Shown piece after piece: positions 9,572-30,473 of a DNA stretch of 41,534 nt. A program made the position numbers and the translations under genes. The notes beneath the pieces are model-generated. The model ran no database searches. It saw only the letters and a list, made by a program, of their open reading frames with translations, and had not been told where the DNA came from. Numbering within the stretch: position 1 is the stretch's first letter; every line of letters starts with the position of its first letter. Origin of the DNA: Lachnospiraceae bacterium (lineage in GTDB: Bacteria; Bacillota; Clostridia; Lachnospirales; Lachnospiraceae); NCBI GenBank assembly GCA_017479285.1, contig JAFVCL010000043.1, forward strand, positions 1-41,534, written 5' to 3'.

Positions 9572-11143
9572 CTACCCGATAAAATCCGCATCAAGCGAAG
9601 CCTTTTCAACATTCTCAAGAACAGGCTCACTCTCCGCGCTTCCCTCTATCTTAACATTCTCCGCCACAGCTTCCCTTACATTCTTAAGGAAAATGCCGGC
9701 TCCGGACATCTTCGGAAATCCGTCCATCATAATAGGACACTGGGGAGTTCTCTTCTCCTTTGGAAGATAAGAAACTCTTACATCCTTAAGCTCTATCTTT
9801 TCTATAGGTGACTCCGGCAGACCGTTGGCGCAGACAAACGAGGCATCCACCCCTGAGCAGTCCACATTTTCCGCCGTTATGGTTCCAATCCTGGGAGTTC
9901 TATAATCGACAGGAAAAGCGTTCTGGTTCTGCACATAATCCGTATGTCCGTCAGGGTCGCAGAAATAAAACATATTGACGGTTATCGGCATATGCACCCT
10001 GTCCATGGTAAGATCTTCAAATCTAAGATCTGTTATAAGGGATCTTTCTCCCCGTCCTCTCCTTGTCTTAATGCGGAGTCCTCTGTCTGTTTCGGAAAAT
10101 ACACATTTTGAAACGCGGACACCCTTTACTCCGCCTGCCACCTCGGAACCAACGGTTACCGAACCGTGTCCTCTCTCAAGACGGCAGTTTCTTATCTCGA
10201 TCCTTTCGGTCTCCTTGTAATGGTAATTAGCCATATAAAGCTTTCCGCTCTTTATCGCTATGCAGTCATCACCAACGGATATCTTTGTACCGATAAGAAG
10301 GATGTCTGTGCAGCTCTCCGGGTCAAAACCATCCGTATTGGGGGAATTTGAAGGATTCCAGATCTCAAGGTTCATAAACTTAAGATCGTCACTGTAGTAA
10401 GGATGTACTGCCCATGCGGGAGAATTTTTTACGGTAATTCCGCTGACTCTAATATTTTTGCTGCCGGATATAAAAACAAGCTTCGGTCGCCACGCGATCC
10501 TCTTTGTCCTTACATCAACCCACCAGTCTCCCTTATCGGCATTTCCGTTTATACATCCCCTGCCGAATATTTCAACATTTTCGGTGTCTATGGCTGTAAT
10601 GAGCGACGCAAAGCAGTCAAGGGGATTCCCCTCCCAGGAGGCGAGGCTGATCTCCCTGTCGTTGTCATATTCGTTTCTTATGACCCCCGGGAGCACGGGA
10701 TAATGATGTCTGTCGGGATCTCCGTAAACAGTGGCTCCCTCATCTATCCATAGACTCATATCACTCTTTAAAAATATGGGAGTGCAGAAATAATCTCCCT
10801 TAGGAATATAGACAGTGCCATCCTTCGGACAGCTCATTATCGCCGCCTGTATCGCGGGAGTGTCCGGGTGCGTACCGTCTCCGAAAGCTCCGAAATCCTT
10901 TACATTAAGTAAAAAGCTCTCGTGCTTTGTCTTAAAGCGCTCCTTCTGGGAACAGCCCTCTATGGATATCTCATATTCGGTATCCGGTATCAGTCCGTAT
11001 ACGGTTATTACATTCAGATTTGAAACGCAGGCCTCCTTACCGTCGATAAGCACCCTGCAGTCGCTTTCCGTGGCATATCTTGCTCCGGTATTTCTCTCTA
11101 TGCAGATTCCCCTCTTAAATATCTCTATGATCTTAAAATCCAT
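9572..11143 (-). CDS. Polygalacturonase, glycoside hydrolase family 28, cytoplasmic
   Basis: Hydrolyses alpha-1,4-galacturonosyl bonds. Residues 1-75 form a short fibronectin-III-like domain (LNVITVYGLIPDTEYEISI); the right-handed beta-helix starts at LLNVKDFGAFGDG. The four GH28 signatures are intact: NTDGFD (269-274, catalytic D271), GDDCIAIKSG (291-300, D292/D293), GHGSVTVGSE (325-334, H326) and RIKT (357-360). With no signal peptide it would act on imported oligogalacturonides; the N-terminal domain is typical of exo-acting members. It follows GH105 and CE12 in the same operon. AAAGGAG lies 6 nt before the ATG. Rhamnogalacturonan hydrolase activity is an alternative within GH28. Confidence 0.92.
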   Translation of the reverse strand: MDFKIIEIFKRGICIERNTGARYATESDCRVLIDGKEACVSNLNVITVYGLIPDTEYEISIEGCSQKERFKTKHESFLLNVKDFGAFGDGTHPDTPAIQAAIMSCPKDGTVYIPKGDYFCTPIFLKSDMSLWIDEGATVYGDPDRHHYPVLPGVIRNEYDNDREISLASWEGNPLDCFASLITAIDTENVEIFGRGCINGNADKGDWWVDVRTKRIAWRPKLVFISGSKNIRVSGITVKNSPAWAVHPYYSDDLKFMNLEIWNPSNSPNTDGFDPESCTDILLIGTKISVGDDCIAIKSGKLYMANYHYKETERIEIRNCRLERGHGSVTVGSEVAGGVKGVRVSKCVFSETDRGLRIKTRRGRGERSLITDLRFEDLTMDRVHMPITVNMFYFCDPDGHTDYVQNQNAFPVDYRTPRIGTITAENVDCSGVDASFVCANGLPESPIEKIELKDVRVSYLPKEKRTPQCPIMMDGFPKMSGAGIFLKNVREAVAENVKIEGSAESEPVLENVEKASLDADFIG

Positions 11144-11186: not shown

Positions 11187-12326
11187 CTATCTTCTTCTCA
11201 GTATCTCTGTATACGCAAGGAGGAAGGGTGCCACTCCCTTCGCCTCGTTTTCCACAACAGGCTCGCTGAAATAATACTCAAGCGACCCGTCACGACGGTT
11301 TTTCCCTCCGAGTCCCGCAACAAGGCAGATTCCCTTAAGTCCGAGGGTTCCGTCCTCCTGCTCATACAGGTACTTGTCTATTATACCGTCAAAAGCCTTC
11401 TCTCCCACTTTAGCATATTTCGGTGAAATATAGCGGAGTCTTACGGCTTTTAATATCGCGTAAGAAAGAAGCGCGGTTCCCGATGTCTCGAGGTAATTGC
11501 CCTCCGCATCCGCTCTGTCCACAACCTGATAAAACATTCCGCTCTCATCCTGAAAAGGAATAAGGGCATCAATAAGGTTTTCAAGGAGCTTTCCGAAGTA
11601 CCTTTTTTCGTAATAAAGTGTCTCGTCTGTGGCGCTTTCGGTCTCAACAAGAGCAAGCGCAAACCACCCTATCGAACGGAGCCAGAAGTTAGCGCTGCAG
11701 CCGGTCTCCTTATCCGCCCAGTACATCTGCCTGCTTTCGTCATACCCGTGAAAATAAAGCCCCGTAACGGGATCCTTCATATTCTTCTCAACATTCTTAA
11801 ACTGCAAAAGCACATCCCCACATTTTTCCATCTTGCGGAACTTTGTCTCATAGCGCATATAAAAGGGCTCCGCCATATAGAGACCGTCCAGCCATACCTG
11901 GTTCGGATAGATGTTTTTATGCCAAAAGCTTCCCTCTTTTGTCCTCGGCATACTGTCGAGCTGGGATCTTACAAGATCGAGAGCCTTCTTGTATTTTTCG
12001 TCCCCGGTAAGCTCATAAAGATAAAAAAGATTGCTTGCGGTATTTATATTGTCGAGATTATACTCATCCACGGAATAGGTGCTGATGGTGCCGTCCTCCC
12101 GAACAAAGTAATCGATAAATGCCTTTGCAAAATTATAATATCTGTCCTCTCCGGTGTACTCATACAGCGATAAAAGCGCCGTTATCATGCACCCGTCGAT
12201 ATAATTCCACTTATTCGGTCTGTCCGAGCTGACAAGTTCCTTATTCCACATGGGTCTCTCGGCACTGGAATTATCGAGAAGATATTCAATATAATTCTGG
12301 ATCCTTTTTTCTGTTTCTTTAGTCAT
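11187..12326 (-). CDS. GH105 unsaturated rhamnogalacturonyl/galacturonyl hydrolase (YteR/YesR-like)
   Basis: Removes the 4,5-unsaturated uronic acid from the non-reducing end of pectin lyase products, releasing the ketodeoxyuronate that feeds KduI. The protein is 379 residues from the ATG at 12324-12326, the normal family length. I chose this start because GGAG lies 6 nt upstream; the frame stays open for 50 more codons, but that part overlaps the CE12 gene and resembles no GH105 sequence. The (alpha/alpha)6-barrel motifs are present: WNYIDGCM, LDNINTASNL (D92) and YPNQVWLDGLYMAEPF (D147, the expected catalytic acid), plus NFWLRSIGWFALALVE. There is no signal peptide. It lies between CE12 and GH28 in the operon. 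Confidence 0.92.
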   Translation of the reverse strand: MTKETEKRIQNYIEYLLDNSSAERPMWNKELVSSDRPNKWNYIDGCMITALLSLYEYTGEDRYYNFAKAFIDYFVREDGTISTYSVDEYNLDNINTASNLFYLYELTGDEKYKKALDLVRSQLDSMPRTKEGSFWHKNIYPNQVWLDGLYMAEPFYMRYETKFRKMEKCGDVLLQFKNVEKNMKDPVTGLYFHGYDESRQMYWADKETGCSANFWLRSIGWFALALVETESATDETLYYEKRYFGKLLENLIDALIPFQDESGMFYQVVDRADAEGNYLETSGTALLSYAILKAVRLRYISPKYAKVGEKAFDGIIDKYLYEQEDGTLGLKGICLVAGLGGKNRRDGSLEYYFSEPVVENEAKGVAPFLLAYTEILRRR

Positions 12327-12351
12327 CTTTAGCTCCGATCTTAATATAATA

Positions 12352-13113
12352 TCAGTCCGCGGTTTCATCCTTAAAGGAATCGCTTCCGTCTCTTTCCTCA
12401 CCCTTTTTAAGAACGATATAGGGCTTGTCCGCCTTGTTACTGTTGGTATCGAAATTCGCCGAATCCCTCGGCACAAAAAGGCTGCTGTAAGGTTCTCCGA
12501 GCTTTATGAGTTCATCCGCGATAAAGCCCGCAAAAACAACGGCCCCGTGAACGGAAAGATGCGAATTGTCCTTCGGGTACATATACATGGGTCTTGAGGC
12601 AAAATCTCCGATGGCGGCAAGATATGACTCGCTGAGCAAATTAAGATCCGCCACGGGAACATCCAACTGCCCCGCAATATCCTTCGCCGCCCCGGGATAT
12701 TTTCCATGACTGCCCGGAATAAAGGCTCCGGTTTTTTCATCGAATTTTCTTCTTGCGAGAGGCGTTATTATAACGGGCATTGCTCCGTGCTTTCTTGCCA
12801 TATTTACGAACCTTGCGAGATTATCCTTAAAGTCCGTGTCCGCCGCTGCGTATCTTGCGGGATCCGACTCCTTTTCGTCATTGTGTCCGAACTGGATAAA
12901 CAGAAAATCACCATCGGTTATCTCATTTTCTATCAGTTCAAATCTACCCTCATCTATAAAGGATTTCGTGCTTCTCCCGTTTACCGCAAAGGACTTAAGA
13001 AAAACATCATCCTTAAGATACCATGTAAGCCCCTGGGATAGTCCTGTCTGTGGATAAGTCGCTATTTTGTTGAATGTGACCGTACTGTCTCCGGCGTACA
13101 ATATTCTTTTCAT
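12352..13113 (-). CDS. SGNH-hydrolase, rhamnogalacturonan acetylesterase type (CE12)
   Basis: Removes acetyl groups from galacturonate residues of rhamnogalacturonan. A 253-residue protein with the four SGNH blocks: GDST (Ser10 nucleophile), NGRSTKSF (oxyanion glycine and Asn), QFGHND (76-79) and KDNSHLSVHG (Asp182 and His185). These match YesT/RhgT of Bacillus. There is no signal peptide, so it is probably cytoplasmic. Residues 215-253 are a hydrophilic tail (NSNKADKPYIVLKKGEER) outside the usual fold. GGAGG lies 5 nt before the ATG, and the start overlaps the stop of the MATE gene by 4 nt, indicating coupling. Confidence 0.9.
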   Translation of the reverse strand: MKRILYAGDSTVTFNKIATYPQTGLSQGLTWYLKDDVFLKSFAVNGRSTKSFIDEGRFELIENEITDGDFLFIQFGHNDEKESDPARYAAADTDFKDNLARFVNMARKHGAMPVIITPLARRKFDEKTGAFIPGSHGKYPGAAKDIAGQLDVPVADLNLLSESYLAAIGDFASRPMYMYPKDNSHLSVHGAVVFAGFIADELIKLGEPYSSLFVPRDSANFDTNSNKADKPYIVLKKGEERDGSDSFKDETAD

Positions 13114-14512: not shown

Positions 14513-15589
14513 CTACAAAACATTTTCTGTTTCCCCATCAAAGAGATAAACGCTTTCATACGGGATAGAGAATGTTATATTGCTGTCAGTATCGGGTGTA
14601 TCATGGGGATCAACCTTAAGGATAGCCTGCCGGTCTCCCACCGTAATATACACATTTGTATTATCTCCCAGCATCTCAGTAAGCTCTACATTACAACCGA
14701 TCTGGTAAGAATCATCCTGTTTGCCGAGAACGATTGCCTCCGGTCTGAACCCGAATACGATCTCCCTGCCTTCATAACCCGCGATCTTATCGGCAAACTT
14801 TTTGCCAAGATCGATCTGCTGGTCTCCGAACGCGATGCAGCCGTCTTTAAGGACTCCCTTTACAAAGTTCATGGGAGGCTCGCCGATAAATCCGGCAACG
14901 AACACATTCGCAGGGCTGAAGTAGAGCTCATGGGGAGTACCTACCTGCTGGATATAGCCGTCCTTCATAACCACTATCCTGTCAGCCATTGTCATAGCCT
15001 CTGTCTGGTCGTGGGTAACATAGATGGTAGTAGCCCCGATTTCTTTATGAATCTGCGTTATCTCCGAACGCATAGTAACACGCTGCTTGGCATCAAGGTT
15101 TGAAAGAGGCTCGTCCATAAGGAAGATACCAACCTTACGGATTATGGCTCGTCCTACAGCGACACGCTGTCTCTGACCGCCGGAAAGAGCTCTCGGAAGT
15201 CTGTCGAGATAATCGGTAAGTCCGAGGATCTTTGCGGTCTTATAAACACGCTCCTCTATGACATCCTCATCCACGCCCTCAAGGGTAAGTGAGAAGGCAA
15301 GGTTATCATAAACCGTCATCTGGGGATAAAGAGCGTAGCTCTGGAAAACCATGGCCACCTCTCTCTGACGGGGACCCAATTCGTTTGCTCTCTTACCGTT
15401 TATAAGGAAATCTCCGCTTGATATCTCTTCAAGTCCCGCTATCATACGAAGTGTTGTGGACTTTCCGCATCCCGAAGATCCAACGAAAACGATAAATTCA
15501 CCCTGCTCTATATCAAGATTAAAATTATGTACGGCATGAAATCCATTGGGATAAATCTTGTTAAGATTCCTGAGTTCAAGATAAGCCAT
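14513..15589 (-). CDS. ABC transporter ATPase, UgpC/MsmK/MalK type (second of two)
   Basis: The energising subunit of a carbohydrate uptake ABC system, 358 residues, the usual length for the type with a C-terminal OB-like regulatory domain. Visible motifs are Walker A GSSGCGKST (about 37-45), Q-loop FQSYALYPQM, signature LSGGQRQR, Walker B IFLMDEPLSNLDAK and switch YVTHDQTEAM. The C-terminal domain starts around GEPPMNFV. AAAGGAG lies 7 nt upstream, and the ATG immediately follows the stop of the 213-residue membrane protein. It is clearly paralogous to the ATPase at 16789-17874 but divergent (GSSGCGKST versus GPSGCGKST; REVAMVFQSYALYPQ versus RDMAMVFQNYALYGH). Having two different ATPases for one permease pair is unusual. 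Confidence 0.95.
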   Translation of the reverse strand: MAYLELRNLNKIYPNGFHAVHNFNLDIEQGEFIVFVGSSGCGKSTTLRMIAGLEEISSGDFLINGKRANELGPRQREVAMVFQSYALYPQMTVYDNLAFSLTLEGVDEDVIEERVYKTAKILGLTDYLDRLPRALSGGQRQRVAVGRAIIRKVGIFLMDEPLSNLDAKQRVTMRSEITQIHKEIGATTIYVTHDQTEAMTMADRIVVMKDGYIQQVGTPHELYFSPANVFVAGFIGEPPMNFVKGVLKDGCIAFGDQQIDLGKKFADKIAGYEGREIVFGFRPEAIVLGKQDDSYQIGCNVELTEMLGDNTNVYITVGDRQAILKVDPHDTPDTDSNITFSIPYESVYLFDGETENVL

Positions 15590-16231
15590 TTAAACACTCC
15601 TTTTAGCGTCACTAACTATTTTTTTGAAAAGGTTCTTCATCCCCACAAAGCCCATGTCTATTCCCATGCAGAACACTCCGAAAAGTATGGGCTCGACTCC
15701 GAGGAATATTTTTTCAGTGTTACCGGTGATTCTCATGAAGACAAGATTCACACCGTTATATATCATATAAACAACAAATATAACCACAAAAGCATACAGT
15801 ATATTCAGTATAAACGAGATATACTTCTTCTTGGGAAACATCATCCACTTGTCAAGTGCGCCCTCTGTCTCCGCAAAATACCTTATCAGGTTATTCTCAA
15901 GCAGGTCCGTAACTATACCGTATCCGATACCGACGACAATGACCGTATCTATCATTGTCCCCAGATACCCTCCCAGTCCCCACACGAAGAAAAAACAGAT
16001 CATTGCGGCGAACCAGAACTTTATAAGTATTACCTTTACGATATCCGGCAGTTTGAATTTACCCTGCCTGCTCTTGTATTTATTGAGCTCTTCCTTTGAA
16101 TACTCGGGTGCTTCCCCCTTGTTTGCGTTTACAAGATCCTCTACAGCCTCGGTCTTAAGCTTATAATATCCGGCTGCGGTTTTCTTCTCGTCTTCGGAAG
16201 GCCCAGCATTCTTTTTCTTACCAAATGCCAC
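15590..16231 (-). CDS. Unrecognised membrane protein, four predicted helices (213 aa)
   Basis: I do not recognise this family. It starts at a GTG (16229-16231) with GAGGAG 9 nt upstream. The first 60 residues are soluble and highly charged (KKKNAGPSEDEKKTAAGYYK; YSKEELNKYKSRQGK). Four hydrophobic segments follow, near 66-85, 88-106, 130-155 and 168-188, ending in a basic tail (KKIVSDAKRSV). It is sandwiched between another small membrane protein (6-nt gap) and an ABC ATPase with which it abuts, so it is co-translated with transporter subunits. It shows no EAA loop, so it is not a normal importer permease. A role as accessory subunit of the sugar transporter is inference from position only. 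Confidence 0.75.
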   Translation of the reverse strand: MAFGKKKNAGPSEDEKKTAAGYYKLKTEAVEDLVNANKGEAPEYSKEELNKYKSRQGKFKLPDIVKVILIKFWFAAMICFFFVWGLGGYLGTMIDTVIVVGIGYGIVTDLLENNLIRYFAETEGALDKWMMFPKKKYISFILNILYAFVVIFVVYMIYNGVNLVFMRITGNTEKIFLGVEPILFGVFCMGIDMGFVGMKNLFKKIVSDAKRSV

Positions 16232-16237
16232 GAAGCG

Positions 16238-16789
16238 TTACTCCTCGCTGGAAATCTCAATCTCGCCCATGGATTCGTTGCCCGCAACATCGATGGAAGT
16301 CTTGATCTTGCGAAGAAGCTTTGAGTAAAGGGGAAGCAAAGCTACAAGCGCAACGGTTATTATCAAAAAGATAAAATGAACACCAAGCATCTTGTATGCC
16401 TTTGCGATAAAGAGATTCTTCTTAAGCATATCTGCCGCCTTTGCACCCTCATTTACGATTGCGAGAGTTATCTTGGACAGATAATATCTGTTACATACTC
16501 CGATGATGATCTGCATTATAAAAAACAATACAAGCATCGGTACATTTACCGGCTTTCTGTGTGGAAATGCGTTCAGAAAACACACAAATGACAATATGGA
16601 CAGAAGCATTGTCACAAATCCTGCGAGCCCCATACCGGTCATATTGATTCTGGCTGTAGTATCGGAAATGATACGCAGATTCAGGGAATATATAAGGAAG
16701 GTGACAATAAGCACTATCATCGGTATTGTCTGGGGCTTACGCTTAAGCGCAACCATCCTTTTACGGAAAAACTCCTTGACCTTCTTCAT
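16238..16789 (-). CDS. Unrecognised membrane protein, four predicted helices (183 aa)
   Basis: No family recognised. The first 20 residues are strongly basic (MKKVKEFFRKRMVALKRKPQ). Hydrophobic segments lie near 21-40, 52-72, 83-99 and 132-155, followed by a basic stretch (YSKLLRKIKTS) and an acidic C-terminus (GEIEISSEE). The long loop 100-131 (CNRYYLSKITLAIVNEG) may be extracytoplasmic. The start codon overlaps the stop of the upstream ATPase gene by one base (TAATG), showing tight coupling to the transporter ATPase. Topology broadly parallels the 194-residue protein at 18412-18996, and the two may be distant relatives, but identity is too low to assert by eye. Confidence 0.75.
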   Translation of the reverse strand: MKKVKEFFRKRMVALKRKPQTIPMIVLIVTFLIYSLNLRIISDTTARINMTGMGLAGFVTMLLSILSFVCFLNAFPHRKPVNVPMLVLFFIMQIIIGVCNRYYLSKITLAIVNEGAKAADMLKKNLFIAKAYKMLGVHFIFLIITVALVALLPLYSKLLRKIKTSIDVAGNESMGEIEISSEE

Positions 16790-17874
16790 TAGTTACCCGC
16801 CTTTCTGACAATCGCGTTTGTGGTCTCCTTGTCGAAGAAATGCATCCTGTTGAAGGATACCATAACAATATCTCCGTCCTTATGTTCACACCATCCGCGG
16901 AACTTACATACTATTCTTCCTTCGGTTGCGGTTCCATCGATATGTCCGTGAACAAGAGTGTTCATACCGAGATTTTCGTTCTTTGAAACCTTTACCGGAA
17001 CGCTTCCGCCCGGAACCACATTCTCCGGACGAACACCGAGGGTTATATGCTTACCCTGGTAGGAAGCAAGAAGATCCTTCTGCTCAGGTGTCATCTGCAC
17101 TTCAAAATGAGGACCCACAAGGTTATCTCCGCTTACAAGCACCTCAAAGAAATTCATGGGAGGAAGTCCGATAAAACTTGCAACGAAAAGATTTGCGGGA
17201 GTATCGTAAAGCTCCAGGGGAGTACCGATCTGCTGTACATGGCCCATGGACATACATACGATCCTGTCCGCAAGCGTAAGCGCCTCGGTCTGGTCATGTG
17301 TAACATAGAGCATCGTAGCTCCGAGTCTCTTGTGGAGAAGCATGATCTCGCGTCTTGTGGAACCTCTCAGCTTGGCGTCAAGGTTTGAGAGAGGCTCGTC
17401 AAAGAGGAAAAGCTTGGGGTTGCGGACTATCGCACGACCCATGGCAACACGCTGACGCTGTCCTCCGGAGAGCTGTGAGGGCTTCTTGTTTAGCTGGCTT
17501 GTAAGATCGAGTATCTCGGCAGCCGCAAGAACCTTCTTATGGATGACATTGGGATTCTCCTTGCGGAGTGTAAGTGAGAAAGCCATGTTCTCATAAATAG
17601 TCATATGACCATAGAGAGCATAGTTCTGGAAAACCATCGCCATATCCCTGTCCTTGGGAGGAAGCGTGGTAATGTCCTTTCCGTCAAGGATAAGATGTCC
17701 CTTTGATATATCCTCAAGTCCCGCGATCATACGAAGCGTCGTTGACTTTCCGCAACCGGAGGGTCCTACAAGGACAATAAACTCACCCTGTTCAATGTCG
17801 ATATTGAAGTCATAGACTGCCTGCACCTTATTGTCGTATATTTTGTCCAGATGCTGCAGGGATAACTGCGCCAT
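16789..17874 (-). CDS. ABC transporter ATPase, UgpC/MsmK/MalK type (first of two)
   Basis: A 361-residue nucleotide-binding subunit of a CUT1-type sugar importer. Motifs: Walker A GPSGCGKST (about 37-45), Q-loop FQNYALYGHM, signature LSGGQRQRVAMG, Walker B LFLFDEPLSNLDAKL, switch YVTHDQTEAL, then a C-terminal regulatory domain with LGVRPENV. AGGAG lies 7 nt before the ATG. It is flanked on both sides by small membrane protein pairs. In many Firmicutes a single MsmK energises several importers; here two divergent copies are encoded in one operon with one LplB/LplC permease pair, which leaves open a heterodimer or a second membrane complex. Confidence 0.95.
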   Translation of the reverse strand: MAQLSLQHLDKIYDNKVQAVYDFNIDIEQGEFIVLVGPSGCGKSTTLRMIAGLEDISKGHLILDGKDITTLPPKDRDMAMVFQNYALYGHMTIYENMAFSLTLRKENPNVIHKKVLAAAEILDLTSQLNKKPSQLSGGQRQRVAMGRAIVRNPKLFLFDEPLSNLDAKLRGSTRREIMLLHKRLGATMLYVTHDQTEALTLADRIVCMSMGHVQQIGTPLELYDTPANLFVASFIGLPPMNFFEVLVSGDNLVGPHFEVQMTPEQKDLLASYQGKHITLGVRPENVVPGGSVPVKVSKNENLGMNTLVHGHIDGTATEGRIVCKFRGWCEHKDGDIVMVSFNRMHFFDKETTNAIVRKAGN

Positions 17875-17902
17875 AATGAATCTCCTAATCTAAAAACAAT
17901 AA

Positions 17903-18412
17903 TTAACCTTCTACTTCAGCAATATGCTTCTTTAAGGTATTGCATCTTACAATACCGACAAAAGAAGAAATCAGAAGACATACACCTGAGCCAATAAGAT
18001 AGATGACAAGTCTTGTAAACTGTGCATCCCTCATAACCTGCTCTTCTATACCGGTAGTAAGAGTTGTGGCGTTATGTGCAGTCACCGGATAGATGAAAAT
18101 CCTTACAAACTGCATTACAGCCACCGGTATGGCAATGTATGAATAGTTGATCTGATAATTCTTGCTTCCCTCGGAAACAAGGAAAACGATCATCATAAAC
18201 AAAAGATTGTAGACAATCGATAAGCCGATAAGAGGTTTGTAATAATACTGACCTACATTGGACTTATAAATGCTGATAAAGAAAAGACCGTTTAAAATTA
18301 TCGAAAGGATCGCAAGGTTCGCGGACATCTTGTTTTTTACATACCGCATCCTGTCCTTTTTGATATAGGCTTCCGTCATCTGTTCGGGTTTAACTTTAAT
18401 ACTCTCAGCCAT
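17903..18412 (-). CDS. Unrecognised membrane protein, four predicted helices (169 aa)
   Basis: No family recognised. A charged soluble N-terminus of about 30 residues (VKPEQMTEAYIKKDRMRYVK) precedes hydrophobic segments near 32-50, 60-79, 88-108 and 132-155; the C-terminus is a short KKHIAEVEG. The arrangement of a charged N-tail plus four helices is similar to the 213-residue protein at 15590-16231, which occupies the same relative place in the second ATPase module. The start overlaps the stop of the preceding membrane protein (TGATG), and the ABC ATPase follows after 28 nt. Confidence 0.75.
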   Translation of the reverse strand: MAESIKVKPEQMTEAYIKKDRMRYVKNKMSANLAILSIILNGLFFISIYKSNVGQYYYKPLIGLSIVYNLLFMMIVFLVSEGSKNYQINYSYIAIPVAVMQFVRIFIYPVTAHNATTLTTGIEEQVMRDAQFTRLVIYLIGSGVCLLISSFVGIVRCNTLKKHIAEVEG

Positions 18413-18996
18413 CAGGCGATCTCCTTTCCGGCTCCGATAAGCCCCTTCTCTTCTTTCATAAGATTGATCTTCCAGATAAGGTTAAAGATGTTGAGCCCCA
18501 CAACGATCAAAACGAGGCCAAACACTGCGTAATGTATATCAAACCAGAAGGTGGACTCCGAATACTTCGTGTTCCACATCTCCGAGTATGCTTTCAATGC
18601 TTCAAAATCTATCTGCTTGAACTGAGCCTTGAAGGCTTCAAGCTTTATATGCGCCCAGCATGTAAAAACAAGACCATAGGCAACATTTAAAAAGATTGCA
18701 ATATAGTTACTTACATAGTAACGCCTGCGGGTATTTGTACTTGTGATAAACAGAACCGCAGCCACAAGTATCATTCCGATGGATACCTTGACAAGCATGC
18801 TGTTAAAGCCCTGCATATCATAATATATTATTGAACCGGCCACATCGCTCTTCGTATGGTCAGCGTATGGCATGGTCGTAAAGAGGGTGTCATAAAGATC
18901 AGTCATGAGACCCAGGGAATACAGGAAGGTCACCGCACCTGTGATAACAGTGACAAAACATATAATTTTCTGCAAAAGCATCTGCTTTTTGTACAT
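18412..18996 (-). CDS. Unrecognised membrane protein, four predicted helices (194 aa)
   Basis: No family recognised. Hydrophobic segments are near 10-30, 70-88, 95-115 and 152-175. Between the first two is a roughly 40-residue polar loop (TTMPYADHTKSDVAG), and between the third and fourth a loop with alternating aromatic and charged residues (FKAQFKQIDFEALKAYSEMW). GAGG lies 8 nt before the ATG. It is the first gene after the solute-binding protein, separated by a strong GC-rich hairpin that may lower expression of everything downstream. It begins the membrane-membrane-ATPase module that is repeated once. Confidence 0.75.
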   Translation of the reverse strand: MYKKQMLLQKIICFVTVITGAVTFLYSLGLMTDLYDTLFTTMPYADHTKSDVAGSIIYYDMQGFNSMLVKVSIGMILVAAVLFITSTNTRRRYYVSNYIAIFLNVAYGLVFTCWAHIKLEAFKAQFKQIDFEALKAYSEMWNTKYSESTFWFDIHYAVFGLVLIVVGLNIFNLIWKINLMKEEKGLIGAGKEIA

Positions 18997-19056
18997 AGGA
19001 TTTTCCTCTTTAAAGAAAAATTGAAAAATAGAAATCGTCCTATATCTCTATTTCTG

Positions 19057-19086
19057 AAAAGGCGCCGGGCCGTCTGACCCGGCGCC
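19057..19086 (-). terminator. Strong hairpin after the solute-binding protein gene (partial terminator or mRNA-stabilising stem)
   Basis: Perfect 9-bp GC stem GGCGCCGGG (19061-19069) / CCCGGCGCC (19078-19086) with an 8-nt loop. On the minus strand it is followed only by TTTTC, a short U-run, so read-through into the downstream membrane protein and ATPase genes is expected. Such stems commonly raise the level of the binding-protein message relative to the rest of a transporter operon. Confidence 0.75.
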
Positions 19087-19119
19087 GATAGTACTGATTT
19101 AAAAATATTTAGCTAAACT

Positions 19120-21348
19120 TTAGAAGTTAGCGTTTGCGTACTCCTGAAGCATTGTCCATGCCTGGTTCTTAACCTGAAGATAGGTTGCTCCGTTCCAGTC
19201 ATTTGCGATCATGCTTGCAGCATCTGCGCCTGCAACTCCGGCATCAGCGTCGGTAGCTGCGGTGGTTCCGCGGATGATAACATTGAGGAATACATTGTTC
19301 TCAAGCTTGCTGGTTGAGAAGCTTCCGTTAAGGTCTGCGTTCTGCTTGAGAAGGTCGTTCTGTGCGTCTGTGGTAGGAAGAACGGTAGGAACGATGGTGT
19401 AGAACATGTTGTCCTCTACTGCAAGTGCAGGATGCTTGATAACACCAAGGTTGATAGCGTTGGTGATATTGGCAGGACCTTCCTTACCTACAGCAGTTGT
19501 ACACTCGTTCTCGAATGCCTGAGTCTTGTTGAAGGAAAGGGTCGATCCAAGGTACTGACGTGCGAAGTTGGTGTAGTTACCGCCTGCAAGGCTCCAAAGA
19601 TCAGCATAGTTCTGCTCGGAGATACGAGGCATCTGAGTTCCATAGAAATCAAAGGTGTTGCTGTCATCACGGAATGCTGCGGGGCCGTATGAAAGAAGAA
19701 CCTGTCCTTCATAGGTGTAAGCATAGTCGATGAGCTTTAAGCAAGCGTGAAGCTTGTTTACATCATCAGCAACATGTGCAGCGATAGCCCAACCACCGGT
19801 CTTAGCGGATCTCCAGGACTCGGTAAATCTCATGTAGGTCTCTCCGGTTCCATCATCCCACTTAGCTACAGGGATCATAACTGCCATGTACTTCTCGTCA
19901 GCATCAAGCTTTCCATCCTCATTAAAGATGGTCTGAGTCTGGTTGTAGTCATAGCTCATGAATCCGGTATCGTTCTTTACATAGTCGCTTGACTTGGTAG
20001 CGTTGTCATCTGAAGAAGCAACGAAGTCTGCAGCGATAAGACCCTCCTTAACCATATCGTTAAGGCGAAGAAGTGCGGTGTAAGTAGCATCTTCCTGTCT
20101 TGCGTCGTGAAGAGTGCCATCCTTGTCGAAGAAGAGGTAGTCCTGACGGGACTCAAGTCCTCTTACACCGTAAAGGATACCTGCAAGACGATAAAGGTCA
20201 GCACGACGGGAGTTGTTGTTCTCCTCACGGGAGAAGAGACCCTGTACCTTGTTTCCGTCAGCGTTAAGAGTTGCAGAGTTAGCAACTACACAACGAAGAA
20301 GTGCAACCATCTCGTCTGCATCCCATGCAGCGCTCTGTCCGATGAAGAGATTTGAACGCTCGGTTCCGTAGAATCCGGCATAGCACTCATCGATGTAGGT
20401 ACGAAGCATGTTTACAGCTTCAACGCCGCTAATGGAGCCTGCCTCGTTCATCTTTGCAACGATGTTTCCTGAGGTATCATAGTCCTTGGTAAGCTGGGTT
20501 ACTCCGCTTCCGTCGGGCTTAACGATATCAACGGTAACCTTTCCGCTGGTAGGCATGTAAGGCTGATAAACAGGTGCTGCGGTGTTGTCTGAAGAATCTG
20601 CGGTAAACTCTCCTTCTCCGTCAAGAAGCTTAACTACCCAGTCAGTTCTCATAAGAGGCATCTTCTCGATATCGTCAAGTCCGTCGAAGTAAGGTGATCC
20701 GTAGATAGCACCTGCATCGTCACCATCGATGGATCCGGTAAGTGACATGCGGACAACGGGATTTGCATCAAGGAATGCCTTGAAGTTGGGCATTACATCG
20801 AGATACTGTGCAATGTTAAGGACATTTCCTGCTGCTCCGCCTTCCTGAAGCTGTGCAGCTGAACCGGAGAACATATCGATGGAAGCAAGAGTTCCCTCGT
20901 CAGCGGTCCACTTTGTGTAGTTGTCGGTGTCCTTATCGCCTGCGTACTGGTCATCGATCTCGAAACCGAGAAGGTTCTGGATCTCAACCCAGGTAGGCTT
21001 GAAGTCGCCTGTGTGATAGGTTACGCCATCAGCAAGTGTTACACCCTCTCCGGCAACCTCTGCGTCGAAGCGCATTCCGGTTTTTGCGTTGTTATATCCG
21101 CAGGACATAACAAGAACGGTTCCCTCTTCGAAAGCAAGAGGATCAGCCGCGGGCTCCTCAACAACCTCAGTCTCGGTAGTTGGAGTCTCGGTAGATTGAG
21201 TCTCGGGCTCGTTGGTGGTGGTCTGCTCGGGTGTGGTGGTTGCATCGTTTACAAGATTGGAAACATCACTTCCGCCTGAACAGCCCGTGAGCATCATTGC
21301 AGCAGCGAATACTGCAGCTGCAGTTTTCATCAGAGCTTTTCTTTTCAT
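19120..21348 (-). CDS. Extracellular solute-binding lipoprotein of the pectic-oligomer ABC importer (742 aa)
   Basis: Captures oligosaccharide outside the cell for the LplB/LplC permeases encoded just upstream. The signal peptide ends in the lipobox LTGC (Cys about 23), then a Thr/Glu/Pro-rich linker runs to about residue 68. The mature part is far longer than the 450-550 residues usual for these proteins, suggesting a large ligand or extra domain. The C-terminal region (GGWAIAAHVADDVNKLHACL, LIDYAYTYEGQVLLSYG) is typical of type 1 solute-binding proteins of LplA type. AGGAGG is 5 nt before the ATG. Codon choice is much more uniform than in neighbouring genes, as expected for a highly expressed gene, and the hairpin at 19061 fits that. 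Confidence 0.9.
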   Translation of the reverse strand: MKRKALMKTAAAVFAAAMMLTGCSGGSDVSNLVNDATTTPEQTTTNEPETQSTETPTTETEVVEEPAADPLAFEEGTVLVMSCGYNNAKTGMRFDAEVAGEGVTLADGVTYHTGDFKPTWVEIQNLLGFEIDDQYAGDKDTDNYTKWTADEGTLASIDMFSGSAAQLQEGGAAGNVLNIAQYLDVMPNFKAFLDANPVVRMSLTGSIDGDDAGAIYGSPYFDGLDDIEKMPLMRTDWVVKLLDGEGEFTADSSDNTAAPVYQPYMPTSGKVTVDIVKPDGSGVTQLTKDYDTSGNIVAKMNEAGSISGVEAVNMLRTYIDECYAGFYGTERSNLFIGQSAAWDADEMVALLRCVVANSATLNADGNKVQGLFSREENNNSRRADLYRLAGILYGVRGLESRQDYLFFDKDGTLHDARQEDATYTALLRLNDMVKEGLIAADFVASSDDNATKSSDYVKNDTGFMSYDYNQTQTIFNEDGKLDADEKYMAVMIPVAKWDDGTGETYMRFTESWRSAKTGGWAIAAHVADDVNKLHACLKLIDYAYTYEGQVLLSYGPAAFRDDSNTFDFYGTQMPRISEQNYADLWSLAGGNYTNFARQYLGSTLSFNKTQAFENECTTAVGKEGPANITNAINLGVIKHPALAVEDNMFYTIVPTVLPTTDAQNDLLKQNADLNGSFSTSKLENNVFLNVIIRGTTAATDADAGVAGADAASMIANDWNGATYLQVKNQAWTMLQEYANANF

Positions 21349-21439
21349 AATTTCCTCCTATATGAAAAATTTTCTGTGCCTTGATTTATTGCAACCGCTC
21401 TCTGTTTTTATGCAGAGAACAGAAAACAATCTCTTTAAA

Positions 21440-22330
21440 TTATTCTTTTACGCCGCCGGCGTTGGTTCCCTTTGCGAAATACTTCTGGATAAAGGGATAT
21501 ATTATGAGGATGGGAATAACCGATACTACGATAAGCGAGTAGATTATCGAATCGGATGCGTAGGGCTGGTTCCATCCCGCCATTTCCTCGGGGTTGGTGA
21601 ACTCCTCGAGCTTAAGTCTAATGAATACCTGAAGAGGGTGCTCGTTGTTGTCCCTGATCATCATTCTCGCCCAGTAATAACCGTTCCATCTTGAGATTGC
21701 GAAGAAAAGGGCTACTGTTGCGATGGTGGATTTCGTCATCGGAACATAAACTCTTGTAAGCACCTGGAATTCGCTGGCTCCGTCCACGATCGCGGCCTCC
21801 TCTATCTCTGAAGGAACTCCCTCGAAGGCGTTACGAAGAAGGATTATGTTCATTGCGGCCATACCCATTGCGATAACGACAAGCCATTTATCATCCGTGA
21901 TACCAAACTTGCTGAACACACGCTGCGTAGCCAGATAGTTCAGATACTGGGGAACGATACCTGCCGAAAACCACATTGTGAACACAAGGAAGAAATTGAA
22001 AAACTTTCTGAAAAGCAATCTCTTCTTTGAGAGGGCGTATCCGCCGATTATTGCGATTCCCAGTGCCCAGATTGTACCGAAGAAGGTAAGGAACAGAGTA
22101 TTTGAATACGAGTTCCAGAACATATTGTCGTTAAACATTTTCTTGAATGCCATGAACTGTACATCCTTCGGGAACAGGACCACCTGTCCGTATGTCACGG
22201 CATCGTATCCGCTCATTGCGGAGGATATGGCGTATATGAAAGGATACAGACACGCCAGTGCGAATGCCGTAAGAAGTACATAGCTTATTATTTTGAAAAT
22301 GAGTTCCGATATCTCAAGTCTGCGCTTCAT
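21440..22330 (-). CDS. ABC sugar permease, LplC/YtcP type
   Basis: A 296-residue inner-membrane subunit with six predicted helices. The cytoplasmic EAA loop that contacts the ATPase is present (EEAAIVDGASEFQVLTRVYV, about residues 188-207). The N-terminus (LTAFALACLYPFIYAISSAM) and C-terminus (YPFIQKYFAKGTNAGGVKE) are diagnostic of the LplC/YtcP group of CUT1 importers, often used for complex oligosaccharides including rhamnogalacturonan fragments. AAGGAG precedes the ATG by 8 nt, and it follows LplB after 12 nt. The 91-nt gap to the binding-protein gene holds a small stem TCTCTG/CAGAGA but no clear promoter. Confidence 0.93.
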   Translation of the reverse strand: MKRRLEISELIFKIISYVLLTAFALACLYPFIYAISSAMSGYDAVTYGQVVLFPKDVQFMAFKKMFNDNMFWNSYSNTLFLTFFGTIWALGIAIIGGYALSKKRLLFRKFFNFFLVFTMWFSAGIVPQYLNYLATQRVFSKFGITDDKWLVVIAMGMAAMNIILLRNAFEGVPSEIEEAAIVDGASEFQVLTRVYVPMTKSTIATVALFFAISRWNGYYWARMMIRDNNEHPLQVFIRLKLEEFTNPEEMAGWNQPYASDSIIYSLIVVSVIPILIIYPFIQKYFAKGTNAGGVKE

Positions 22331-22342
22331 TCTTAAATCTCC

Positions 22343-23416
22343 TTAGTAAAGCGAGGTATTAGATGCTTTTCTTGCAATGGTGTTTGCTCCGATAACGAGG
22401 AGCATTCCGACGATATTGTTCATCATCTCTGCCGCCATGGCAAGTCCCGGATTACTGTTACCGACCTGCCCGACGCCGCCGACTCTCTGGGCGAAGGTTG
22501 AAACAACATCTGCGGTAACATAAGTGTTTGTATTGTAAAGAAGGAGAACCTTCTCATATCCCACCGAAAGGAGATGTCCGATACGGGTTATCAGCATGAT
22601 GACAACCGTTGAAAGTATGCTTGGAAGGACCACATATCTCATCTGCGCCATCTTGCCGGCACCGTCGATCTGCGCCGCCTCATAGCTCGTCGGAGATATG
22701 GCGATAATCGCGGCAAAGAATACGATACTGTCGTAACCGGCGCCCTCCCAGATACCCGTTATCTGGTAGATCGCCCTGAAAAGTCCTGGCTGGTTCAAAA
22801 GACCCGCGTTTGCGACATCGCTGCTTATCCAGCCGAGATTGTAAAGAAGCTGGGATATAACGCCCATTCCGTTAAAGGTCGATGAGCTTCTTACGAGCAT
22901 TATCGTAAGGGAGGTCATAACGACCGTTGACATGAACTTGGGCAGATAGGTCATAACCTGAAGAGCACTTCTTGCAACATTGGAACGGACCTCGTTGAAG
23001 AACAGTGCAAGGATTATAGGCATCGGGAAACCAAAGAGCAGTCCGTAGAAGGAAAGCAGGAAAGTGTTTCTCATGGCTCTCCAGAAATCAAGTGAAAGAC
23101 TTGCCGAAGGGCCGCTTGCCATAAAGAGTGTTTTGAATGAAGAAAATCCTATGAACAGCCTGTCCGCAACAGGTGTGGACTCCTTGTACAGCTTAAAGCA
23201 TCCCAGAAGCTCGTACATCGGGAAGTAGCGCCAGAAAAGGAAAACAAGGATCATAGGAACGAGCATCACATAAAGACGCCAGTCCTTAAGGATCGTTCTC
23301 CCAACATGGAGCCAGTAATGCTTTTCAACATCATCGCGGACCGCCTGCTCGGCATCCATCCTGTATGTTTTCTTCTCCTCGTCATAAATGAGGTAATCGG
23401 AAGCTTTAGCTTTCAT
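22343..23416 (-). CDS. ABC sugar permease, LplB/YteP type, with N-terminal extension
   Basis: A 357-residue partner permease. The EAA loop reads YEAAQIDGAGKMAQMRYVVL (about residues 239-258). The N-terminal 45 residues are soluble and charged (DEEKKTYRMDAEQAVRDDVE), an extension that the roughly 310-residue family members lack. Family segments include FWRYFPMYELLGCFK and the C-terminal GMLLVIGANTIARKASNTSLY. AAGGAG lies 5 nt before the ATG. With LplC and the large binding protein it forms a conventional import core; the ATPases come later in the operon. Confidence 0.93.
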   Translation of the reverse strand: MKAKASDYLIYDEEKKTYRMDAEQAVRDDVEKHYWLHVGRTILKDWRLYVMLVPMILVFLFWRYFPMYELLGCFKLYKESTPVADRLFIGFSSFKTLFMASGPSASLSLDFWRAMRNTFLLSFYGLLFGFPMPIILALFFNEVRSNVARSALQVMTYLPKFMSTVVMTSLTIMLVRSSSTFNGMGVISQLLYNLGWISSDVANAGLLNQPGLFRAIYQITGIWEGAGYDSIVFFAAIIAISPTSYEAAQIDGAGKMAQMRYVVLPSILSTVVIMLITRIGHLLSVGYEKVLLLYNTNTYVTADVVSTFAQRVGGVGQVGNSNPGLAMAAEMMNNIVGMLLVIGANTIARKASNTSLY

Positions 23417-23433
23417 AATTTCTCCTTCATTTC

Positions 23434-24024
23434 CTAATTGTCCGTACTGTTTCTATCTTCTGCTTCACTCTCCTGTATCCTGTGGATGTAGTGGACCTGG
23501 TTTTCAAGAAGTCCGTCCTGCTTTCCGGCCACAAGGAGAATGATCGCGGTAAATACTATCGAAAGTGAATCGGTGGCGTAAAAGGCCACGGCATTTTTAA
23601 ATCCATACCCGAGCATCAGAGCCATGCATCCGCGTCCCGTCTGCATCAGCAGAAGAACCGATACCCCGTAAACACACGCGAGGAATATGTTTTTCCTCAT
23701 CCTCTCCTCCTTTATCAGCTTCGCAATAAGGATTCCGAGGAGCCCCAGAAGATTCCCGACGCAGTAGATGATATACTGCTGCGGTGTGCTCTTAAAAACA
23801 ATACACAGAACCAGCCCGCCTATCACCGCGTGTATCGCTCCGAACCATTTCCACCTTATCATGACAATGGCGGTCACTCCTGCGGTCACGGACACGGTGT
23901 ACAGTTGATCGGGGAACCATCTGGACGAAGCGAAAGATATAAGTCCTTCGACCACTGCCAGGATCACGGCAAAGGATACCAGATCAAAGGCTCTGTATTG
24001 TGTAAGTGTAAAGTGCGGTTTCAT
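23434..24024 (-). CDS. Six-helix membrane protein, unknown; first gene of the transporter operon
   Basis: A 196-residue hydrophobic protein with about six predicted helices and a polar C-terminal tail (QESEAEDRNSTDN). Its overall look (TVSVTAGVTAIVMIRWKWFG, then AIHAVIGGLVLCIVF) reminds me of ECF-transporter S components, but I cannot confirm this. There is no ribosome site before the only usable ATG (24022-24024): an in-frame stop lies 2 codons upstream and no other start is near. A promoter-like TTGCAA-N17-TATGCT ends 7 nt before the ATG, so the message could be leaderless. It precedes lplB by 17 nt and so is co-transcribed with the importer. Confidence 0.72.
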   Translation of the reverse strand: MKPHFTLTQYRAFDLVSFAVILAVVEGLISFASSRWFPDQLYTVSVTAGVTAIVMIRWKWFGAIHAVIGGLVLCIVFKSTPQQYIIYCVGNLLGLLGILIAKLIKEERMRKNIFLACVYGVSVLLLMQTGRGCMALMLGYGFKNAVAFYATDSLSIVFTAIILLVAGKQDGLLENQVHYIHRIQESEAEDRNSTDN

Positions 24025-28673: not shown

Positions 28674-29540
28674 TCAGTCTTTAACCTTGATATCGCCCTC
28701 AACCTCAACTTCGTCCTTAAACTTGGACTCATCAAGATTTGAGGGATCCTGTCCGATGTATGCCGAGATACCGCCGTCAATGTAAACAACCTGTCCGTTG
28801 ATGAAATCGGAAGCGGGTGATGCAAGGAATACAGCAAGTCCCATAAGATCCTCGGTATGTCCCCAGCGCTGTGCGGGCGTCTTTGACCTTATGAAACGGT
28901 CGAAGGGATGCATCGAACCGTCCGGCTGCTTCTCGCGAAGAGGTGCAGTCTGGGGAGTGGCGATATATCCGGGTCCGATGGCGTTGCACTGTATACCGTA
29001 CTGACCGTACTCAGAGCAGATGTTTCTGGTAAGCATCTTAAGACCGCCCTTTGCCGCAGCGTATGCGGATACGGTCTCCCGCCCGAACTCGCTCATCATC
29101 GAACAAGCGTTGATTATCTTTCCGCTTCCCTGCTCCATCATATGGGGAAGAACTGCCTTTGAGCAGATGAAGGGTCCCGTAAGGTCGATATCGATAACAA
29201 GATTCCAGTCATTTAAGCTCATCTCATGCATGGGGATTCTCTTGATGATTCCCGCGTTGTTTACGAGAATATCGATAGGTCCCACATTCTTTTCCACTTC
29301 CTTAACAAAATTGGCAACCTGGTCTTCCTTGGTTACATCGCAGATCATACCGAAAGCATCGATTCCGGCCTTCTTGTACTCTTCCATTCCGCGTTTAAAA
29401 TTCTCTTCGTTGATATCGTTGAAAACGATCTTGGCTCCGGCCTCTGCATAAGCCTTTGCGTAAGCCATTCCAAGTCCGTAGGATGCACCTGTGATCCATG
29501 CAACCTTACCGTCAAGTCTGAATTTTTCCATTATTCCCAT
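28674..29540 (-). CDS. kduD: 2-dehydro-3-deoxy-D-gluconate 5-dehydrogenase, short-chain dehydrogenase
   Basis: Reduces 2,5-diketo-3-deoxygluconate (DKII) to KDG with NAD(P)H. The Rossmann motif is TGASYGLG (about 18-25), followed by NNAG and the catalytic Ser...Tyr-x-x-x-Lys in CSMMSEFGRETVSAYAAAKG. The C-terminal FINGQVVYIDGG is classical for the family. At 288 residues it is about 30 longer than standard KduD, because of an acidic tail (SKFKDEVEVEGDIKVKD) whose role is unknown. AGGAGG lies 8 nt upstream of the ATG. It is located between kduI and the RpiB-type isomerase gene. Confidence 0.93.
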   Translation of the reverse strand: MGIMEKFRLDGKVAWITGASYGLGMAYAKAYAEAGAKIVFNDINEENFKRGMEEYKKAGIDAFGMICDVTKEDQVANFVKEVEKNVGPIDILVNNAGIIKRIPMHEMSLNDWNLVIDIDLTGPFICSKAVLPHMMEQGSGKIINACSMMSEFGRETVSAYAAAKGGLKMLTRNICSEYGQYGIQCNAIGPGYIATPQTAPLREKQPDGSMHPFDRFIRSKTPAQRWGHTEDLMGLAVFLASPASDFINGQVVYIDGGISAYIGQDPSNLDESKFKDEVEVEGDIKVKD

Positions 29541-29609: not shown

Positions 29610-30473
29610 TTATCTGATATCCCTGTTATTTACATTGTCCATATCATCAAAATCCTGGTTCTCTCCCACCATACCCCAGATAAATGTATAGTTTGAAGAA
29701 CCGCATCCGCAGTGGATCGACCAGCTGGGGGATATGACCGCTTCCTCGTTGTGCATAACGATATGCCTTGTCTCCTGGGGCTCACCCATGTAATGCATGA
29801 CAAATCCGTCCTCGGGTACTTCAAAGTACATATATACCTCCATACGGCGGTCATGGGTGTGGCAGGGCATCGAATTCCAGACGCTTCCGGGCTCAAGATG
29901 TGTCATTCCCATCTCAAGCTGGCAGCTCTCGACCTGTCCGGGAAGAATGTATTTGCAGATAACTCTGTGGTTAGCCTCTTCCATGCTCCCCAGCTCTTTT
30001 TTGTTCTCGTCCTTTACTATAACGACACCGGGCTCCGGAGTACCGCTGGGCTTTATAAGCACCGTGGGGTAGGTGGCGTGGGCTGGTGCGCTGTTTAAAT
30101 AGAATTTTGCGGGATTGGAAGGATCGTCGCTTTCAAAAGAAATATCACGATTTCCCATTCCGATATACATACCCTCTCTGTGGGCCACCTTTGTAGTCTT
30201 TCCGTCGATGGTAATTTTGCCGTCTCCGCCGATATTTATTACCCCGAGCTCACGCCTCTGTAAAAAATACTCCGCTCTCAGCTCATCACCGGCGGTAAGA
30301 ACAAGCTTTTCATCGGTAGGAGTTGCAGAGCCTGCAATAATCCTGTCTATATGGCTGTATACAAGATATATCTCTCCGGGTCTGAAAACCTTCTGGATAA
30401 GAAATTCATCTCTTAATCTCTGGGTATCATAATACTTCACATCCTTTGGTGAAGCTGCGGTTCTAAGCTCCAT
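29610..30473 (-). CDS. kduI: 5-dehydro-4-deoxy-D-glucuronate isomerase
   Basis: Zinc-dependent cupin that converts the unsaturated-uronate product DKI into DKII. A 287-residue protein of normal length. The opening YYDTQRLRDEFLI and the metal-binding block WNSMPCHTHDRRMEVYMYF (two His and a Glu), with the fourth ligand in SWSIHCG, identify it. AGGAGG is 7 nt before the ATG. First gene of the lower-pathway operon. Its leader holds a palindromic operator and a terminator-like hairpin, so expression seems controlled at two levels. Confidence 0.96.
   Translation of the reverse strand: MELRTAASPKDVKYYDTQRLRDEFLIQKVFRPGEIYLVYSHIDRIIAGSATPTDEKLVLTAGDELRAEYFLQRRELGVINIGGDGKITIDGKTTKVAHREGMYIGMGNRDISFESDDPSNPAKFYLNSAPAHATYPTVLIKPSGTPEPGVVIVKDENKKELGSMEEANHRVICKYILPGQVESCQLEMGMTHLEPGSVWNSMPCHTHDRRMEVYMYFEVPEDGFVMHYMGEPQETRHIVMHNEEAVISPSWSIHCGCGSSNYTFIWGMVGENQDFDDMDNVNNRDIR

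Follow-up and report, generated by a model that had tools for sequence, protein, structure and literature searches.

A 41,534-nt contig (JAFVCL010000043.1, hereafter the window, meaning the whole stretch analysed) from the draft genome of a Lachnospiraceae bacterium (GCA_017479285.1; 2.67 Mb in 102 contigs) carries on its minus strand a predicted sugar-importer operon with the gene order M0-LplB-LplC-SBP-M1-M2-A1-M3-M4-A2 (Table 1), in which two permeases (LplB and LplC) and a solute-binding protein (SBP) are accompanied by two ATPases (A1 and A2) and five small membrane proteins (M0 to M4). A first-pass annotation, made from the sequence alone, had placed its genes and the 742-residue SBP correctly. 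It had listed four small membrane proteins, which hold as M1-M4, and had missed the fifth, M0, which lies inside the same interval. The tight junctions of 1 to 28 nt that it reported stand for M1 through A2, where they range from 1-nt overlaps (M1/M2 and A1/M3) to a 28-nt gap (M2-A1); those upstream of M1, measuring 17, 12, 91 and 123 nt from M0 on, had gone unmentioned.

Table 1. Features of the operon, its internal stem-loops and the neighbouring uronate genes, in window coordinates
Feature	Position	Strand	Description
M0	23434..24024	-	196 residues, six transmembrane segments; opening gene of the operon; no known family
LplB	22343..23416	-	AlgM1-type permease with EAA loop
LplC	21440..22330	-	AlgM2-type permease with EAA loop
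SBP	19120..21348	-	742 residues; lipoprotein-like solute-binding protein, enlarged AlgQ relative
M1	18412..18996	-	194 residues, four transmembrane segments, two long conserved outside loops
M2	17903..18412	-	169 residues, four transmembrane segments, 29-residue charged N-tail
A1	16789..17874	-	361 residues; MalK/UgpC-type ATPase between M2 and M3
M3	16238..16789	-	183 residues, four transmembrane segments
M4	15590..16231	-	213 residues, four transmembrane segments, 71-residue N-tail, predicted cytosolic
A2	14513..15589	-	358 residues; second MalK/UgpC-type ATPase
Strong stem-loop	19061..19086	-	11 bp, SBP-M1 junction, z = -5.5
Further predicted stem	19024-19055	-	SBP-M1 junction
Further predicted stem	19000-19021	-	SBP-M1 junction
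Pectinesterase	6578..7630	+	No signal peptide
GH28 pectin hydrolase	9572..11143	-	No signal peptide
GH88/GH105-type unsaturated uronyl hydrolase	11187..12476	-	Pfam GH88, read here as GH105; no signal peptide; start codon uncertain
GDSL esterase	12352..13113	-	Possibly a pectin deacetylase
KduD-like dehydrogenase	28674..29540	-	Neighbour cluster
KduI/IolB family protein	29610..30473	-	Neighbour cluster

The core of the operon is readily recognizable. LplB matches AlgM1 (4tqu_M, E=1.4e-63) and LplC matches AlgM2 (4tqu_N, E=2.6e-77), and the EAA..DGA loop is retained in all 70 relatives of LplB and all 75 of LplC scoring above 400 bits in the pectin-linked version of the locus (type I, as distinct from the type II loci described below). 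The SBP profile, from an alignment of 21 of 25 listed relatives (those 25 being every third of 75), matches AlgQ1 and AlgQ2 in two stretches (E of 2.9e-11 for AlgQ1) separated by a middle segment that is longer than in AlgQ, and the protein as a whole exceeds the 490-516 residues of the AlgQ chains. SBP matched no Pfam family, and a plasmid search with it returned no match. By homology, LplB, LplC and SBP are counterparts of AlgM1, AlgM2 and AlgQ of the Sphingomonas alginate importer, and the predicted core is that of an AlgM1/AlgM2-type (CUT1, type I) importer, with two EAA permeases, an AlgQ-like SBP and a motif-intact MalK-type ATPase. An AlgM1M2SS system in the strict sense has two permeases and a homodimeric ATPase, has no other subunits and imports a macromolecule. 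We class the system with the AlgM1M2-type importers by this core, its gene set exceeding that strict definition and M0-M4 being candidate subunits.

The small membrane proteins have no recognizable family. Hydropathy averages over alignments (39 of 53 listed relatives for M0; L021 omitted for M2; near-identical sequences excluded) give six hydrophobic segments for M0 and four for every one of M1-M4, with positively charged N-termini. The roughly four helices per protein read in the first-pass annotation are thereby supported, as are the charged N-tail on the second protein of each pair (M2 and M4) and the absence of an EAA loop, which LplB and LplC carry and none of M0-M4 does. Its description of the four proteins as unknown also holds, as no Pfam or NCBIfam model reached its cut-off for any of M0-M4, signalling domains included, and the sub-threshold matches were scattered over unrelated families and judged to be chance. 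PHROGs gave no match for M0-M4. Against the PDB, the profiles of M1-M4 returned nothing at an E value of 5 except weak matches of the conserved M4 N-tail (its first 71 residues) to the helical hook of two SinI chains (E of 1.1 and 2). A match of the M0 profile to an ER membrane complex subunit (0.018 over 56 residues) was likewise attributed to chance, as were matches of individual sequences from the alignments of M0 and M4, which spread over unrelated families. An ECF transporter was rejected, as no such model rose above cut-off for M0-M4 and UgpC is the best NCBIfam model of both ATPases; TIGR04520 is among the best 25 models for A2 only, at 158 bits against a cut-off of 315. DUF624/YesL is a family of accessory proteins; this identity was also discarded for M0-M4, the DUF624 Pfam family not being among the matches listed to E 10. 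Conservation in M2 and M3 peaks around the first outside loop and the second transmembrane segment, and nearly invariant charged residues lie within predicted membrane segments of M0 (E26), M2 (R104) and M4 (D192), the latter compatible with contacts between subunits. An extra small membrane protein also occurs in two maltose-type importer operons (L185, 14229-14663, 144 residues; L188, 14354-14812, 152 residues), its gene separating that of the binding protein from that of a permease some 700 residues long; these proteins show no relation to the M0-M4 profiles.

The first-pass annotation had made its proposal dependent on a gene order shared with relatives, and that order proved to be nearly invariant. 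We assembled 84 loci, comprising the best 80 of 261 M1 relatives from a genome-contig scan, the window, and three loci from an M3 search of family genomes, so that the order counts are conditional on M1 or M3. Among testable loci, order and strand are kept for M0-LplB in 65/66, LplB-LplC in 74/74, LplC-SBP in 76/76, SBP-M1 in 76/77, M1-M2 in 80/80, M2-A1 and A1-M3 in 76/76 each, and M3-M4 in 74/74. The two exceptions (L030 and L069) arise from overlong frames; gene starts were taken as the first ATG, GTG or TTG, so that some lengths and overlaps are start artefacts. All nine genes from M0 to M4 are present in 61 of the 84 loci, which span three phyla under labels that include Lachnospiraceae, Oscillospiraceae, Erysipelotrichaceae, Spirochaetales and Chloroflexi/Anaerolineaceae; Bullifex porci (L020) is one of the carriers. 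The nearest are Lachnospiraceae metagenome-assembled genomes whose M1 is 81% and 80% identical to that of the window. In a midpoint-rooted tree of eight joined proteins from 68 complete loci, six Spirochaetota, five Chloroflexota and five Erysipelotrichaceae/Solobacterium loci (taxa as labelled in the records) each group into a single clade (support 1.0).

Few genomes in the samples searched carry the system. M1 was strong in 10 of 397 family genomes, its own included, with two weak matches besides; M3 was found in 1 of 398 phylum genomes, which is its own; of 198 genomes from the Bullifex phylum, Bullifex itself gave the one clear match, with two marginal matches besides. The reverse test gave the same association, as the SBP profile was strong (above 600 bits) in 11 of the 397 family genomes and M1 was present in 10 of those 11.

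A second version of the gene set emerged from two weaker SBP matches followed by an M4 search of 201 order genomes (13 matches, one of them marginal), for which the neighbourhoods of eight of the 12 clear matches were examined besides the window, G1272, G1183 and G1236 being left out. The seven loci of this type II (L225, L226 and L243-L247) have the order M0-LplB-LplC-SBP-M1-M2-ATPase (M0 missing in L245). Next comes, at the place of M3, a small gene whose product has three or four hydrophobic segments, and then M4; all seven contain a single MalK-type ATPase in a stretch of some 20 kb. With type II members kept out of the alignments, type I profiles match M1, M2 and M4 in 7/7 loci and M0 in 6/7 (E no higher than 2.4e-4 at a nominal search size of 100,000 sequences), although type II M1 and M4 are only about 19-28% identical to their type I counterparts. 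The gene at the M3 place is M3-like by position and hydropathy, and an M3 profile that includes L225 and L226 gives weak matches (9.5-16.1 bits) in four of the other five loci. The LplB loop reads EA(L/I)..DGG in all seven, and LplC keeps an EAA-type loop as well. Pfam and NCBIfam identify the neighbours at L225 and L243 as a DUF4962 protein, a heparinase-II/III-like and oligoalginate-lyase-like protein, a short-chain dehydrogenase and, at L243, a cupin; relatives of the two lyase-like proteins and the dehydrogenase occur at 7/7 loci and of the cupin at 6/7, which points to alginate-like or other uronates as the type II substrates. A hydrophobic N-terminal segment is absent from 13/13 lyase-like proteins checked and present in 7/7 type II SBPs. 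In three further loci (L206, L241 and L242) a divergent form of the pectin type is found; each has two ATPases, with A2 standing first, ahead of M0, and GH28 or GH105-type relatives alongside. M4 has no long N-tail in L206, L225 and L226 and is short (156-177 residues) in the remaining type II and divergent loci too, indicating that the tail is not essential to proteins of this type.

Both ATPases of the window are of the UgpC/MalK type with an OB domain. All five motifs (Walker A, Q-loop, signature, Walker B and H-loop) are intact in 76/76 relatives of A1; for relatives of A2 the figure is 61/61, except for the signature (60/61). The relationship between the two, which are 51-55% identical, was assessed in trees of samples of 106 and 57 sequences with one distant sequence as root. 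The A2 clade has a support of 100, and the A1 clade 96 in the 106-sequence tree and only 66 in the 57-sequence tree. In the former, an ATPase from a maltose-type operon (L130) groups with A1 at support 100, and of the 54 other MalK-type ATPases 51 branch off between the A1 and A2 sides, with branch supports of 38-87; in the latter, the seven type II ATPases, the L130 ATPase and A1 form a clade with support 100 that leaves A2 outside. On these trees A1 looks like the ancestral ATPase of the system and A2 like a separate, dedicated addition in the pectin branch. A2 was found with pectin versions only. Among the 76 loci with M4 it is adjacent in 16, lies 0.9-5 kb downstream in 48 and upstream in one, and was not seen in 11, six of which offer less than 6 kb of room. 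When 12 carrier genomes were searched whole, A2 was found at 76-80% identity in nine and as partial 86% matches in two, while other matches to A2 reached at most 55% at full length and up to 66% when shorter. Judged by this distribution, A2 is dedicated to the system despite being separable from the operon.

The first-pass annotation had interpreted the succession of two membrane proteins and an ATPase, twice over, as a duplicated cassette, and this part of its proposal finds no support. A tandem duplication yielding two equivalent modules would account for the superficial symmetry of two four-helix proteins ahead of each ATPase and for the identity between A1 and A2. Profile-profile comparison, confined at first to sequences over 85% of full length, nevertheless assigned probabilities of only 0.2% to M1-M3 and 0.1% to M2-M4, and of 0.2% and 1.6% once the most divergent relatives were added, when the L225/L226 versions of M0, M1, M2 and M4, as a positive control, found their type I counterparts at 99.0, 96.7, 97.3 and 98.7% and every off-diagonal pair in the same comparison stayed at or below 3.5%. 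Moreover, A1 and A2 are not sister genes in the trees, and type II has no second ATPase yet carries M4 and an M3-like gene after the first. We therefore consider duplication highly improbable. By sequence profile M1-M4 have no detectable relation to each other, with which a shared fold lacking sequence signal remains compatible, and the operon is better parsed, we infer, as a single M1-M2-A1-M3-M4 cassette, with A2 acquired separately.

The surroundings of the type I loci indicate the probable substrate. Clustering of neighbours at the 84 loci, using non-overlapping frames of about 150 residues or more only, found GH105-type proteins at 47, GH28 at 43, pectinesterase at 33, KduI at 21, KduD at 17, a BD-FAE/alpha-beta hydrolase at 15 and GH4 at 11. 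By a crude signal-peptide test, which excluded sequences under 90% of the cluster median length, a hydrophobic N-terminal segment is present in 0/47 GH105-type proteins, 1/41 GH28 proteins and 2/33 pectinesterases, in contrast to 68/76 SBPs. Because the GH28, GH105-type and pectinesterase proteins lack signal peptides, pectic chains are probably imported as oligosaccharides and then cut in the cytosol. The suggestion of the first-pass annotation that extra membrane proteins are tied to an importer of pectic fragments is thus borne out by the order kept in relatives and by the pectin enzymes alongside.

The interpretation we favor, with a probability of roughly 0.6, is a single oversized ABC importer of uronate oligosaccharides in which an AlgM1M2-like core would be joined by four or five accessory membrane subunits in one complex. 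Such an importer would use ATP to take up acidic (uronic-acid) oligosaccharides, here presumably pectin fragments (identity and size both predicted). The AlgM1/AlgM2-like LplB-LplC pair would be fed by the enlarged AlgQ-like SBP and driven by A1, with an A1-A2 heterodimer as the probable motor in the pectin branch. M1-M4, with 16 transmembrane helices, and in nearly all loci M0, with six more, would surround this core as accessory subunits: M1 most likely receives the oversized SBP or guides the long charged chain, and M2-M4 together with M0 probably widen or stabilize the membrane part. The oligomer would then be cleaved in the cytosol by the GH28 and GH105-type enzymes and esterases and enter the Kdu pathway. 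The two outside loops of M1 are more conserved (0.74) than its transmembrane segments (0.60) and hold near-invariant motifs, MTDLYD and TFWFD among others, as expected for a docking or guiding surface. A bolder version, which we offer tentatively and hold to be doubtful, has M0-M4 and the core forming one assembly of about 34 helices that threads long charged polymers (pectin, alginate-like, heparin-like) over one membrane, a new architectural class in which the pectin version would have an A1-A2 heterodimer with two unequal power strokes.

Several observations weigh against a single importer of this composition. In M1, the short inside loop (residues 86-98; 0.83) and the N-terminus (0.77) both exceed the outside loops in conservation, which therefore fails to single out the outside. 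One type II locus (L245) is without M0, the type I M3 profile matches 0/7 type II loci, and the M3-M3 profile-profile probability of 4.9% is not significant. The ATPase trees have weak support at their deep branches. One carrier genome searched whole (G549) has the operon and no A2 was found in it, and in three Chloroflexota stretches (L123-L125) A2 lies next to KduI, away from the M genes. A relative of SBP (L224, genome G805) is without any other gene of the set in 20 kb. Finally, LplB/LplC could run on a shared cellular ATPase of the MsmX type, with A1 serving the M proteins.

This last point leads to the alternative of two machines in one operon, with LplB, LplC and SBP running on A2 or a shared MsmX and M1-M4 forming a second ABC-like complex on A1. 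Such a division would suit the position of A1 between M2 and M3 in every testable locus (76/76 on each side), the separability of A2 from the M genes and the intact motifs of both ATPases; MsmX/MalK-like ATPases are moreover widespread, 89 of 118 class genomes having one at E 1e-90, and PMC5730181 describes MsmX as energizing the pectin-oligosaccharide importers of Bacillus subtilis. However, M1-M4 lack the EAA coupling motif and match no permease family above cut-off, LplB, LplC or SBP was missing beside the M genes in 0/84 loci (contig and locus ends aside), and type II has one local ATPase for everything. That one ATPase stands amid the M genes, and the EAA-type loops are kept, which favors one machine. 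We regard two machines as unlikely.

The junction between SBP and M1 bears on a further alternative. It contains the strong stem-loop of Table 1, and z scores below -2 (mononucleotide shuffles, 15 each) were obtained there in 71/75 loci compared with 11/68 for the LplC-SBP junction. The structure is compatible with more SBP being made than membrane parts. Since the stem-loop splits the M message from the SBP message, it is also compatible with a lower copy number of M0-M4, which would then act in the assembly, targeting or quality control of the large SBP/permease complex without being lasting parts of it, a role that would fit small, conserved proteins with no enzyme family match. Set against this role, which appears to us distinctly unlikely, four or five dedicated helpers per importer would in our judgement be unusual, and related alginate and glycosaminoglycan importers are described, in the relevant part of PMC5717064, as an SBP, two permeases and an ATPase homodimer.

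Signalling offers another possible role, in which M0-M4 would be a membrane sensor or a chemotaxis or regulatory assembly listening to SBP and not transporter subunits. Directly upstream of M0 in the window, on the same strand, lies a chemoreceptor-like gene (24143-25543) with MCP signalling and CZB domains, whose product perhaps links pectin uptake to taxis. At L224 (11861-19154), a close relative of the 700-residue binding protein stands beside a receiver-domain protein and a hybrid histidine kinase of about 1436 residues that contains HD and Hpt domains; the relative is possibly an importer SBP reused as a sensor. Both arrangements would agree with a sensory assembly, but M0-M4 have no signalling domain above cut-off, the regulators nearby are ordinary in appearance (LacI, IclR), and the five proteins are fixed in a transporter gene order across three phyla and alongside two kinds of uronate enzymes. 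A sensor is in our view very unlikely, and the single importer with accessory subunits remains the preferred reading.

The closest known systems are the AlgQ1/AlgQ2-AlgM1-AlgM2-AlgS importer of Sphingomonas sp. A1, which shares homologous permeases and SBP, a uronic-acid substrate class and cytosolic cleavage, and, grouped with it, the Streptobacillus glycosaminoglycan importer Smon0120-0123. The present system departs from these in its five extra membrane proteins, its larger SBP and the pair of different ATPases found in the pectin branch; PMC5717064 describes both AlgS and Smon0120 as forming homodimers. The MsmX-dependent importers of B. subtilis are also type I importers of pectin oligosaccharides in a Gram-positive bacterium, yet differ in using one shared ATPase, and the abstract of PMC5730181 names no extra membrane proteins of this sort. 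Common to CUT1 type I importers in general are two EAA permeases, a MalK-type ATPase with OB domain and an SBP. CUT1 importers normally comprise two permeases, two ATPase subunits and one SBP, whereas here nine or ten genes are inherited together.

The gene set is described in no title or abstract of the open-licence PMC literature among the matches listed, which is weak evidence of absence. An AlgM1M2-type core is here accompanied by undescribed membrane proteins: across three phyla, and beside two kinds of uronate enzymes, four or five integral membrane proteins with neither a Pfam nor an NCBIfam entry are almost never parted from the importer genes. Should these proteins prove to be subunits, they would amount to a large and overlooked elaboration of the type I importer, with a bearing on the uptake of pectin oligomers for internal cutting by gut and rumen bacteria and on alginate-oligomer uptake in Firmicutes, for which a 2021 review (PMC8286568), in the passage concerned, names an ABC transporter within a pathway needing further genetic work. 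The gene set also supplies markers for import-then-cut pectin use.

Two other neighbours of the operon deserve mention. A gene for a MATE-family transporter adjoins it in the window (13110-14495), and MATE-family transporters that are 23-26% identical to this one lie beside five of the seven type II loci (L243-L247). At 2726-6354, a NamZ-type exo-N-acetylmuramidase lies beside a beta-lactamase-fold protein, the two forming a probable peptidoglycan recycling pair.

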